Source: Proteiniphilum sp. X52
GTDB taxonomy: Bacteria; Bacteroidota; Bacteroidia; Bacteroidales; Dysgonomonadaceae
Assembly: GCF_003712195.1 (NCBI RefSeq)
Contig: NZ_RDSD01000012.1
Coordinates: 62,001 to 126,000 of the forward strand
Length of the DNA: 64,000 nt
Direction: 5' to 3'
A program made the position numbers and the translations under genes. This document shows positions 25,652 through 28,368 of the stretch, piece after piece. The notes beneath the pieces were generated by a model. That model was not told the origin of the DNA, searched no databases, and saw nothing but the letters and a program-made list of their open reading frames with translations. The number at the start of each line of letters is the position of its first letter. Position 1 is the first letter of the stretch.

Positions 25652-27019
25652 ATGAAAATGAACAGCTGTTACCTGAATCGTAAAGCGATGAAAATGCTTA
25701 CAGGCATATTGTTTACGGGCCTGTTCTCTGTGATCATGACCGTACAGGCCTCTCCCGCGGACTCGCTCTTACTCTACTTCCGACAAGTGGAGGAAGCCAC
25801 CTTGCTGCATCAGGGGTTGTGGGATAAAGATATTTACGGTCCCATCCTCCTTGTGGATGCCGCGACAAGAGAGGTTTATGCCAACGTGCCCGATGCACAC
25901 GGTGTCTTGAAATTCGATAAAGGCATTTACAAGGGCATATTGCCCAAAGAAGTAACCATTTCCAATACCGATATCCAATGGAGCGGCACTCATTGGGCGA
26001 TGATCACATTGCCATTATCTGCCAACGAACATGATCGTGTTGATATTATTACCCATGAGTTGTTTCACGTAGCCCAACCTTCCCTGGGCTTTCAGATCAG
26101 GAGGGAAGAGAATAACCATTTGGATGTCAGAGAAGGGAGGATATACTTGCGTCTTGAAATGGCAGCGCTGGAAGCGGCATTAAAAGCCCGAAGATTTGAA
26201 CGGGCAGAGGAGCATCTGAAAAACGCATTAATTTTCAGGAAGTATCGTCAAATGCTATATCGGGGCTCCGAAACAACGGAAAACAGTCTCGAATTACTGG
26301 AAGGATTGGCCACTTACACGGGGCAGATAATGAGTGGGCGTAATAAATGGCAGTGGAGAGAATATCTTATCCGGCGGATCGAACTGTTTGAAAAAGTACC
26401 CTCATTTGTACGCTCATTTGCCTATGAAACAGTACCGGTGTACGGATTTTTCCTCTATCAGAAAGATAACCATTGGAATAAAAAAGTGGATGGGGAAACA
26501 CAACTCACTGAATTCTTCTCAGAAGCATTCGAAGCAGACATGCGCATCCTGTTGCAGTCGTATGTAAAACAGGTTGCTGAAGATTATCGGGGCCGCACAA
26601 TTGCCGATGAGGAGGGCAAACGGGAAGTATCCCATAATTTGGTGCTTGAGATGTATCGGGGGAAATTTTTCGAGGAGCCGCGTCTCGAAATACGGCTGGA
26701 AGAGATGAATATGGCTTTCAACCCGCAAAATATCATTCCTCTTGACGAGGATGAGGGAACGGTTTATCCCACCATCACCCTCAGTGATAACTGGGGCGTA
26801 CTTACTGTGGAGGAAGGAGGGGCATTGCTCAGAAATGATTGGCGATGGGTGATTGTTTCGGAACCGTTGGAGATAACCGGCAAGAGAATTGCCGGAGAGG
26901 GATGGGTGATTGAACTCAATGAAGGATATGAGATAAATAGAATTCCGCGGGGTGATTATCAAATTTTGAGAAAGACACCTGTCAACCACCCACCGGAGAA
27001 AGGGGACTCTTTTTATTAG
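25652..27019 (+). CDS. Secreted gluzincin-like protein of unknown family
   Basis: A 455-residue protein with a signal peptide (an internal Met at 25691 starts a cleaner one; cleavage after VQASP). It contains HELFH (135-139) in a helix-like IITHELFHVAQ and, 78 residues on, ELLEGLATYTG with Glu217, the arrangement expected for a gluzincin zinc site (HExxH plus a downstream Glu). Helical segments follow, and the last 90 residues look beta-rich. I do not recognise a named family. It follows rodA by 48 bp and may be co-transcribed, which would place it with cell-envelope functions; that is inference. Confidence 0.75.
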   Translation: MKMNSCYLNRKAMKMLTGILFTGLFSVIMTVQASPADSLLLYFRQVEEATLLHQGLWDKDIYGPILLVDAATREVYANVPDAHGVLKFDKGIYKGILPKEVTISNTDIQWSGTHWAMITLPLSANEHDRVDIITHELFHVAQPSLGFQIRREENNHLDVREGRIYLRLEMAALEAALKARRFERAEEHLKNALIFRKYRQMLYRGSETTENSLELLEGLATYTGQIMSGRNKWQWREYLIRRIELFEKVPSFVRSFAYETVPVYGFFLYQKDNHWNKKVDGETQLTEFFSEAFEADMRILLQSYVKQVAEDYRGRTIADEEGKREVSHNLVLEMYRGKFFEEPRLEIRLEEMNMAFNPQNIIPLDEDEGTVYPTITLSDNWGVLTVEEGGALLRNDWRWVIVSEPLEITGKRIAGEGWVIELNEGYEINRIPRGDYQILRKTPVNHPPEKGDSFY

Positions 27020-27027
27020 ACCATCGA

Positions 27028-27059
27028 TTTGGTCACGAAAAATAATATGGTTAATTTTA
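27028..27059 (+). promoter_or_regulatory. Possible promoter of the YgbA_NO/regulator pair
   Basis: TTTG at 27028-27031, a 20-bp spacer and TAATTTTA at 27052-27059; the last base of the -7 box is A instead of G. The expected leader is about 85 nt. Confidence 0.35.
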
Positions 27060-27151
27060 CGCTTCAGACTATTCTTCGCCATGGCATAGCTCAAGCAAGC
27101 TCGGCCTGTGCATTTGGCTTAACGGAATGGTGCGTTTTGAAAGGGATTATA

Positions 27152-27493
27152 ATGAACGAAGGAGAGAAGAAAGTTGTCAGCAGGATGATCGCGCTTTACT
27201 GCCGGTCTAAACACAGTTCGGGTAAGGAGTTATGTGCAGAATGCGGGTCGTTGCGGAGGTATGCCTTGCAGCGATTGGAGACTTGCTGTTTTGGAGAAGA
27301 GAAGCCCACCTGCGCTAAATGTCCCGTCCACTGCTATAACCACAGCATGCGGGAGAAAATCAAGGAAGTGATGCGTTTCGCGGGTCCGCAGATGTTGCTT
27401 GTGCATCCTGTGGCAGCTATCCGTCATCTTTATCGTGAACGCAGGCATGAGCGCGATTTTACCGCAAAAGTCAAAGCAAATCGCAACAGGTAG
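27152..27493 (+). CDS. YgbA_NO family (nitrous oxide-stimulated promoter) protein
   Basis: Starting at the ATG at 27152 (preceded by purine-rich AAAGGGAT) gives 113 residues; the frame is open for 41 further codons upstream but that stretch looks like leader sequence. Features: MIALYCRSKHSS, then six cysteines arranged as LCAECGSL, ETCCFGEEKPTCAKCPVHCYN, then MREKIKEVMRFAGPQMLLVHPVAAIRHL, all typical of the YgbA_NO family (known in E. coli as ygbA, part of the NsrR/nitrosative-stress regulon). The cysteines suggest metal or Fe-S binding. Its stop codon overlaps the start of the next gene (TAGTG), so the two are translationally coupled. Confidence 0.85.
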   Translation: MNEGEKKVVSRMIALYCRSKHSSGKELCAECGSLRRYALQRLETCCFGEEKPTCAKCPVHCYNHSMREKIKEVMRFAGPQMLLVHPVAAIRHLYRERRHERDFTAKVKANRNR

Positions 27494-28368
27494 TGGCTTT
27501 ATTGAATCAATATAGTGTTATGGCCGATGTGCTGATGGAGCACAATGAGCTTATTCCTGTGCTGAACCGTTTCGGGATACGGCTTGGCGTGGGAGACAAG
27601 ACTATTGGGGAACTGTGCGATGAATACAGACTCAACCCCGACTTCATCCTTACCATCCTGAATGTCTATCTCAATGAAAACTACCTCCCTGAGGCCTCAC
27701 TTGCCCTGTTTGACGCCCAAGCCATTGCCGATTATTTCCAGTGCGCGGTGGAAAGTTATATTCACGAATTGATACCCAACATTGGAAAACACTTGAATGC
27801 TTTTGTCGTCATCAATGGTGCCGAAAATGAAGAGCTGAGAATACTCAATGACATCTTCCACAAATTCAAGGAGAAAATGACGGAACACCTGCGGAATCAA
27901 ACCCTCTTCGATGATGATTTCCCCTATGAATTGCTACACGACCTGAAGAATATTTTAATCAGGCATCTCTCCAAAGAGTTCAATCAGAATCTTATGCACG
28001 CGATCATCTTTTCCGTCCATTCTTTTGAAAAAGATCTTGCCGTCCACAACAGGTTACGTGAGAAAGTACTTCGACCCAAACTCGACGAATTGGACTCAAC
28101 CGGTATCCGACACCTGCATCATGCCATTTCCGGTGAGCATGCGCCGCAGCAACCCGACCGCCATCCCCACCAGCTTACCAGCCGGGAAGAGGAAATCCTG
28201 CGGCTTATAGTGAGAGGATACCTTAATAAAGAGATAGCGGAAAAACTGCACATCAGCCATAATACAGTCCTCACACACCGAAAGAATATCATTTCAAAAA
28301 CAGGAATTAAAACCGTGTCGGGACTCACTTTTTATGCTATCCGTAAAGGGTTGATATCCATGGGATGA
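27493..28368 (+). CDS. RIC/hemerythrin-like sensor fused to LuxR-type DNA-binding domain
   Basis: A 291-residue protein with a GTG start overlapping the upstream stop by one base. Residues 9-62 resemble the ScdA_N/DUF542 helical domain of iron-sulfur repair (RIC) proteins but without its Cys-Cys motif (here GIRLGVGDKT). Residues 78-200 look like a four-helix hemerythrin-like domain, with candidate iron ligands His91, His132, His149, His185 and Glu190 (DLAVHNRLREKVLRPKL). Residues 227-288 are a LuxR/GerE helix-turn-helix (LTSREEEILRLIVRGYLNKEIAEKL). A di-iron domain sensing NO or oxygen and driving DNA binding is the simple reading; the partner gene supports a nitrosative-stress role. Confidence 0.82.
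   Translation: MALLNQYSVMADVLMEHNELIPVLNRFGIRLGVGDKTIGELCDEYRLNPDFILTILNVYLNENYLPEASLALFDAQAIADYFQCAVESYIHELIPNIGKHLNAFVVINGAENEELRILNDIFHKFKEKMTEHLRNQTLFDDDFPYELLHDLKNILIRHLSKEFNQNLMHAIIFSVHSFEKDLAVHNRLREKVLRPKLDELDSTGIRHLHHAISGEHAPQQPDRHPHQLTSREEEILRLIVRGYLNKEIAEKLHISHNTVLTHRKNIISKTGIKTVSGLTFYAIRKGLISMG

Follow-up and report, generated by a model that had tools for sequence, protein, structure and literature searches.

A regulator gene encoded directly behind a ygbA-like gene in Proteiniphilum sp. X52 specifies, to judge from its sequence, a degenerate fused offshoot (P0002) of a gene pair that is widespread in Bacteroidales and consists of a RIC-like protein and a LuxR regulator. Both genes are located in the window, the whole stretch of 64,000 nucleotides that was analysed; its family is Dysgonomonadaceae and its order Bacteroidales. 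The P0002 pair is a variant of a gene pair that is already known from related gut and mouth bacteria. We consider it probable that P0002 acts as a one-component regulator of the Bacteroidales system of RIC-like and CdhR-type LuxR proteins, and that it works independently of a di-iron centre. The features discussed below are the following.

27028..27060, + strand: promoter-like element TTTG-N20-TAATTTTAC upstream of ygbA (pattern count)
27068..27131, + strand: copy of a dispersed repeat of about 60 bases, between the promoter and the ygbA start (own-genome matches)
27152..27493, + strand: ygbA-like gene (P0001, 113 aa, YgbA_NO family; PF11756, PRK10410.1-2)
27493..28368, + strand: gene of the RIC-like/LuxR fused regulator (P0002, 291 aa, GTG start; 88 distinct sequences aligned)
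27493..27708, + strand: ScdA_N/DUF542-like helical domain of P0002, about residues 1-72, without Cys-Cys, Cys42 kept (RIC/ScdA matches)
27715..28089, + strand: predicted four-helix bundle of P0002, di-iron set lost, N96/H100/H158 conserved (AlphaFold2, Foldseek, alignments)
28171..28347, + strand: LuxR/GerE DNA-binding domain of P0002, about residues 227-285 (PF00196; LiaR/VraR/GerE structures)

Both open reading frames and their positions were recovered as given in the preliminary description, including the one-base overlap TAGTG, in which the G of the ygbA stop codon TAG is shared with the GTG start of P0002. The assignment of the first gene to the YgbA_NO family is borne out by Pfam (PF11756, E 7.4e-42, 142.5 bits, cut-off 25) and by NCBIfam PRK10410.1-2 (124 bits, cut-off 88), and that of a LuxR-type DNA-binding domain in the second gene by the GerE match (PF00196, E 2e-15, 56.6 bits, cut-off 23.5, residues 227-277), the domain to which all matches of P0002 in a PHROGs search were confined. 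The N-terminus had been described as RIC-like without the Cys-Cys motif, which agrees with the NCBIfam matches to RIC (TIGR03652, E 5.2e-6, residues 15-136; 26.4 bits, below the equivalog cut-off of 204.7) and ScdA (PRK13276, E 1.3e-5, residues 4-145, also below cut-off); Pfam ScdA_N was not listed for P0002. In 155 of the 156 family members overall, as in P0002, the first 60 residues contain no Cys-Cys. The orthologue of Proteiniphilum acetatigenes DSM 18083 is 91% identical to P0002.

The four-helix bundle expected in the preliminary description is predicted by AlphaFold2, in models that are based on seven sequences only, with helices at residues 75-108, 113-135, 145-158 and 165-199. The pLDDT is 75.7 for the whole protein and 84.0 (pTM 0.79) for residues 1-212, and the linker of residues 214-225 is of low confidence. 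In a Foldseek search with the N-terminal model the top 11 PDB hits were all YtfE or ScdA (prob 0.60-1.00), with E-values of 0.03-0.32 and TMq of 0.25-0.45 (YtfE 0.37-0.45); none of the matches reached E 0.001. The models are indicative of a RIC-like N-terminal fold, composed of ScdA_N and a four-helix bundle, with an uncertain placement of the domains; the geometry of the bundle is uncertain because the TM-scores of the YtfE hits are low and their E-values lie between 0.03 and 0.5. P0002 shares the order of a ScdA_N-like domain and a four-helix bundle with the RIC proteins YtfE, ScdA and DnrN, which also provide its top structural hits, but it differs from them by the absence of both Cys-Cys and the di-iron set and by the addition of a DNA-binding domain.

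The irons of YtfE are bound by H84, H204, H129 and H160 and bridged by E133 and E208, as stated in the excerpts of PMC9268430. At the positions H84, H129, E133, H160, H204 and E208 P0002 has V86, H132, Q136, a deletion, H185 and R189, according to an alignment of 99 fused and 57 unfused proteins whose register is the same as that of a profile-profile alignment. All six ligands are present in 41 of the 57 unfused proteins. Ten of the 99 fused proteins keep H84, H129, E133, H204 and E208; six of them also retain H160, and the other four have a histidine one or two columns beside it. Nine of the ten stem from outside the family of the window and one (L170) from within it. In the remaining 89 fused proteins, which without exception stem from loci of the window's family, the set is lost; two of these proteins have a glutamate at one of the glutamate columns and none at both.

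The preliminary description had proposed a hemerythrin-like domain with His91, His132, His149, His185 and Glu190. The letters are indeed there and the bundle is predicted, but the metal site did not survive, the ligand columns being lost: H91 is offset by five residues from V86, which occupies the first ligand column; H149 is some eight residues away from where H160 would be, a position lost in the deletion; and E190 is one residue beyond the E208 column, which is occupied by R189. Among 88 distinct orthologues H91 is conserved in 57, H132 in 29, H149 in 49, H185 in 82 and E190 in 40, and among 11 representatives at 60% identity the respective numbers are 4, 7, 3, 11 and 5, so that the raw count understates the conservation of H132, which does occupy a ligand position. 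His185 is the only one of the five that is both ligand-positioned and well conserved. Pfam Hemerythrin (PF01814) was not listed for P0002 at a limit of E 10, in scans whose HMMER filters drop most matches above about E 0.1, nor did it match the one degenerate unfused relative scanned; it does match all four canonical relatives that were scanned, with E 1.1e-5 for the unfused paralogue encoded in the P0002 genome and E 4.9e-11 to 3.8e-8 for the other three. The five-residue site was rejected on the basis of the alignments and the conservation counts.

In the fetched set 51 of the 57 distinct unfused RIC-like ORFs are directly followed by a LuxR ORF on the same strand, with gaps of -38 to +59 bases. 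These relatives were drawn from best hits (30 loci and 40 stretches chosen among the matches listed), and the proportions of 41/57 with and 16/57 without the ligand set are therefore not population frequencies. The LuxR partners carry an additional N-terminal part of about 115 residues, for which nothing above the Pfam cut-off was found in the three partners scanned; from its size and position we would guess that it is receiver-like. The fused proteins of the family consist of the RIC-like part and the LuxR DNA-binding domain without this N-terminal part. One unfused pair of a RIC-like and a LuxR protein, with all six di-iron ligands, is located in the genome of strain X52 itself (C14:440659-441913, L171; the RIC-like paralogue at C14:441512-441913), which carries this canonical unfused pair in addition to the degenerate fused P0002. 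One family genome harbors a second fused RIC-LuxR protein that is canonical and retains its ligands (L170; G385:C16:7543-8418), and the other nine canonical fused proteins fetched are all from outside the family.

The N-terminal half of P0002 is homologous to the RIC-like partner: when the fused clade was aligned profile against profile, canonical RIC-like proteins matched over 204 columns (E 7.6e-57) and degenerate unfused proteins over 205 (E 4.8e-74). Proteins were called canonical or degenerate according to their ligand columns, whose state within each class is therefore a matter of definition, and the tree is the independent support for the two classes. In the phylogeny of 91 RIC domains (24 of the 89 fused-degenerate rows and all others), a quick and unrooted tree with some long branches, the degenerate clade and the fused-degenerate subclade within it are both supported by an SH-aLRT of 100, and the canonical fused clade is found elsewhere (96). 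Tree and profile alignment place P0002 among the RIC-like proteins that are paired or fused with a LuxR DNA-binding domain of this clade. The degenerate clade, which includes unfused pairs, is devoid of the di-iron set. The tree needs one change between canonical and degenerate and two changes between fused and unfused, suggesting that the di-iron site was lost once and prior to the fusion. The DNA-binding domains of the fused clade have a mean identity of 65.1% to the partners of degenerate RICs, compared with 54.5% to canonical partners and 45.8% to canonical fused proteins; a tree of this domain, built from 71 columns and with 5 of its 78 inner branches starred, is poorly resolved. Most simply, a canonical pair would first have lost its di-iron site and then have been fused, the LuxR protein being shortened by its N-terminal part.

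Comparable pairs have been published. According to the excerpts of PMC10434189, a hemerythrin-domain protein and CdhR are encoded in an operon of P. gingivalis (PG1236-37) and B. thetaiotaomicron (BT0519-0520) that is upregulated under iron limitation (6.9-7.3-fold and 16-20-fold, respectively), the operon is fused into one regulatory protein in Prevotella intermedia (PIN17_RS10465), and the mechanism of CdhR is unclear. In the excerpts of PMC10101095 and PMC4082711 CdhR is reported to activate the hmu genes and to repress mfa1 and luxS. On the basis of these published descriptions, P0002 resembles the CdhR operon and the P. intermedia fusion in combining a hemerythrin-domain protein with a DNA-binding regulator, as neighbours or in one chain, but it lacks the di-iron set as well as the stretch of about 115 residues with which LuxR partners begin, and it is coupled to ygbA. 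Its fusion is separate from that of the canonical fused clade in the tree, and the latter would be the Prevotella one. The domain order itself is not new, because the excerpts of PMC10434189 already describe it for P. intermedia, and the notion that it is unrecorded in print had to be abandoned. What stands of the earlier statement that no characterised regulator has this order is that no characterisation of a fused protein was found: experiments on any fused member did not turn up in the literature searched, most subscription papers lying outside it. The loss of the di-iron set, the second fusion, the newly conserved residues and the ygbA operon were likewise not found in the literature searched. 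Hemerythrin-coupled signalling proteins are also known from Vibrio cholerae (Bhr-DGC) and P. gingivalis (PG_0686; excerpts of PMC10101095); they share with P0002 a hemerythrin-like bundle as input of a signalling protein, but their output is a diguanylate cyclase, in contrast to the LuxR output of the RIC-like P0002. DUF2023, which is found near BT0519-0520 in the excerpts of PMC10434189, is present in 13 of 25 genomes searched and at none of the RIC loci, and no ORF in the fetched loci matched an RluA-like motif (RluA being a cdhR neighbour). In an oral bacterium the genes influenced by CdhR concern heme uptake and the community, as far as these excerpts tell. The relatives that kept the metal set allow a comparison that could disclose the part of the metal in CdhR-type regulation.

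The degenerate clade comprises 105 proteins (89 fused, 16 unfused) and is characterized by a set of newly conserved residues. N96 and H100 are present in 105/105 and H158 in 101/105 proteins; of the canonical relatives at most 3/51 have N96, 3/51 have H100 and 2/51 have H158. After redundancy reduction at 60%, N96, H100 and H158 are found in 11/11, 11/11 and 10/11 fused and in 6/6 unfused proteins each; among the fused orthologues three have a different residue in place of H158 and one has a gap there. Canonical relatives commonly share D150, R187 and, in part, N164/N166, so that only N96, H100, H158 and N186 mark the clade. Ligand loss and residue gain coincide in a single clade, which amounts to one observation. 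Judged from the predicted helix lengths, H100 and H158 would lie at equal height, beside the conserved N164/N166 and at the opposite end of the bundle from the old site. A di-iron repair or sensor fold has lost its metal set in this clade and yet stayed joined to a DNA-binding domain. The bundle could have a purely structural or protein-protein role, in dimerisation or in docking the canonical pair of the same genome, in a regulator without a ligand of its own, which we regard as possible but on the unlikely side. Such a role is compatible with the disappearance of the metal ligands, with the presence of the canonical pair, and with the Asn, Arg, Asp and Arg residues that the unfused degenerate proteins have at the H84, H129, E133 and E208 columns (15, 15, 16 and 16 of 16), as a salt-bridge network would. 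The invariance of N96 and H100, however, goes beyond the need of a generic bundle.

The distribution of the fused gene bears on its relation to ygbA. P0002 has matches at E 1e-10 in 96 of the 101 genomes of the window's family, and 89 of the 101 have a homologue that was counted as a fused gene (identity 43-93% apart from the window itself; two were matched in two pieces and a few are cut by contig ends), a spread that goes beyond a chance arrangement. With adjacency defined as one strand and a gap of -20 to 200 bases, and with partial fused-gene matches in two genomes left uncounted, both genes are adjacent in 44 genomes, present but apart in 17, and represented by the fused gene only in 28 and by ygbA only in five; seven genomes, in a set of which some are incomplete, have neither. 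The fused gene is thus located directly behind ygbA in 44 of the 61 family genomes with both. This adjacency occurs in seven genera, in one of which each of the ten genomes shows it, and is absent from the larger sister genera g2 (25 genomes) and g3 (six genomes). P0002 has matches in 244 of the 295 genomes of the order; outside the family most of the best matches listed are partial. Some cover residues 2-145 and fall into ORFs of about 240 aa, others cover residues 208-290 and fall into ORFs of about 200 aa; where only the latter residues are matched, many of the proteins may be ordinary LuxR proteins. YgbA was found in 66 of the 295 genomes of the order sample, and among 30 ygbA loci fetched from it (up to 1.5 kb on each side) the regulator lies beside two, both from the window's family. 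The 44 adjacent pairs and these two loci document that the operon of ygbA and the regulator is real and maintained, but local; the regulator is encoded directly behind ygbA in one branch of the family. The coupling of a YgbA_NO protein to a RIC-derived LuxR regulator, put forward in the preliminary description, is supported, and so is the conserved linkage of the two genes (44 of 61 genomes).

In genus g2 a gene for Fe/Mn superoxide dismutase, identified in one case by Pfam and in the others by BLAST cluster, is located upstream of the fused regulator in 18 of 22 loci. The g2 loci are L139-L167, and in 17 of them the fused regulator and the superoxide dismutase gene are divergently oriented. 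In seven g2 genomes ygbA was found 9-23 kb from the fused regulator on the same contig, and in an eighth at a distance of 138 kb. The linkage with ygbA might be incidental and the regulator serve iron or heme homeostasis like CdhR, an explanation that strikes us as rather doubtful. It draws on the upregulation of CdhR-type pairs under iron limitation and the action of CdhR on the hmu genes, as described in the excerpts cited above, as well as on the 28 family genomes in which the fused gene is present but ygbA gave no match and the 17 in which both genes are apart, some genomes being incomplete; it is at odds with the operon order kept in 44 genomes of seven genera and with the superoxide dismutase gene beside the fused regulator in the sister genus. 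In E. coli both ygbA and ytfE are named as NsrR targets (excerpts of PMC1274295 and PMC5320621) and ygbA is strongly induced by NO (excerpts of PMC5320621). The E. coli regulon resembles the situation in the family in that YgbA_NO is associated with a RIC-derived protein, here an adjacent one, but in contrast to E. coli the RIC-derived protein is itself the putative regulator and part of the operon with ygbA. An operon of ygbA with its own putative regulator, in anaerobes that to our knowledge are not pathogens, offers a way into the function of YgbA. We know of no function established for this protein.

The reading of P0002 as a di-iron-independent one-component regulator, which we prefer, can be formulated as follows. 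As a LuxR-type dimer P0002 would bind DNA near its own promoter; the RIC-derived bundle would receive a signal and pass it across the linker of residues 214-225 to DNA binding. This signal would not act via a hemerythrin di-iron centre but via a new site around Asn96/His100/His158 or via a partner protein, and P0002 probably regulates its own operon together with other redox- or iron-stress genes. A role in redox, nitrosative or iron stress is suggested by the ygbA gene, the superoxide dismutase neighbour and the induction of the published pairs under iron limitation. P0002 may respond to NO; the genome of strain X52 has NrfA, and a search of it for Hcp gave no match. A more specific version holds that an invariant Asn96/His100/His158 site, near which Asn164/Asn166 would be located in the fold, took the place of the di-iron ligands after their loss in a single step. 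This site would bind a new signal, such as a small oxidised molecule, heme or a metal other than iron, and in one branch the switch would control ygbA. We put it forward tentatively and think it unlikely in its entirety; if true, a repair-protein fold would have become a gene switch and YgbA would gain a dedicated regulator. A di-iron sensor of NO or O2 is unlikely for P0002, and the full proposal of the preliminary description, a hemerythrin-type NO/O2 sensor on a LuxR domain that controls ygbA, is highly improbable: RIC ancestry, the predicted bundle, the conserved H185, H132 in 29/88, the ygbA linkage and NrfA as a possible NO source speak for it, but both bridging-glutamate positions and two of the four YtfE histidine positions are changed or deleted in P0002, H91 and H149 are off the ligand positions and poorly conserved, and neither a Pfam Hemerythrin match nor an Hcp match in the genome was obtained.

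The region upstream of the operon is distinguished by a promoter-like element. Upstream of the ygbA-regulator operon, 38 of 42 regions contain the pattern TTTG-N17..23-TANNTTT(A/G), compared with 9 of 47 where the regulator stands without ygbA. Its TTTG and TAnnTTTG boxes represent what we take to be the Bacteroidetes promoter type. A shared upstream motif, as envisaged in the preliminary description, did not emerge: the dyad scan of 79 upstream regions (38 with and 41 without ygbA, after removal of near-copies and short regions from the 42 and 47) gave no usable shared operator. Two dyads stand out among the 38 ygbA-containing regions, AAAAT-N5-ATTTT in seven and TAAAA-N7-TTTTA in eight, compared with a maximum of four in 20 shuffled sets. 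We do not interpret them as operators: both coincide in part with the -7 box, which is conserved among these related sequences, and the dyad found most often in the other 41 regions is a different one (9/41). The repeat of about 60 bases has 20 matches in its own genome at E <= 0.01, including itself, the weakest being only 19 and 38 bases long. None is found at the same place in L045, whose orthologue is 93% identical; as seen by eye, the leaders of L008 and of several other loci (e.g. L059, L118) are longer there and of other sequence. Further upstream of ygbA, at 25652-27019 of the window, a protein of 455 aa without Pfam match at E 0.001 is encoded, relatives of which are located upstream in 29 of the 89 fused loci.
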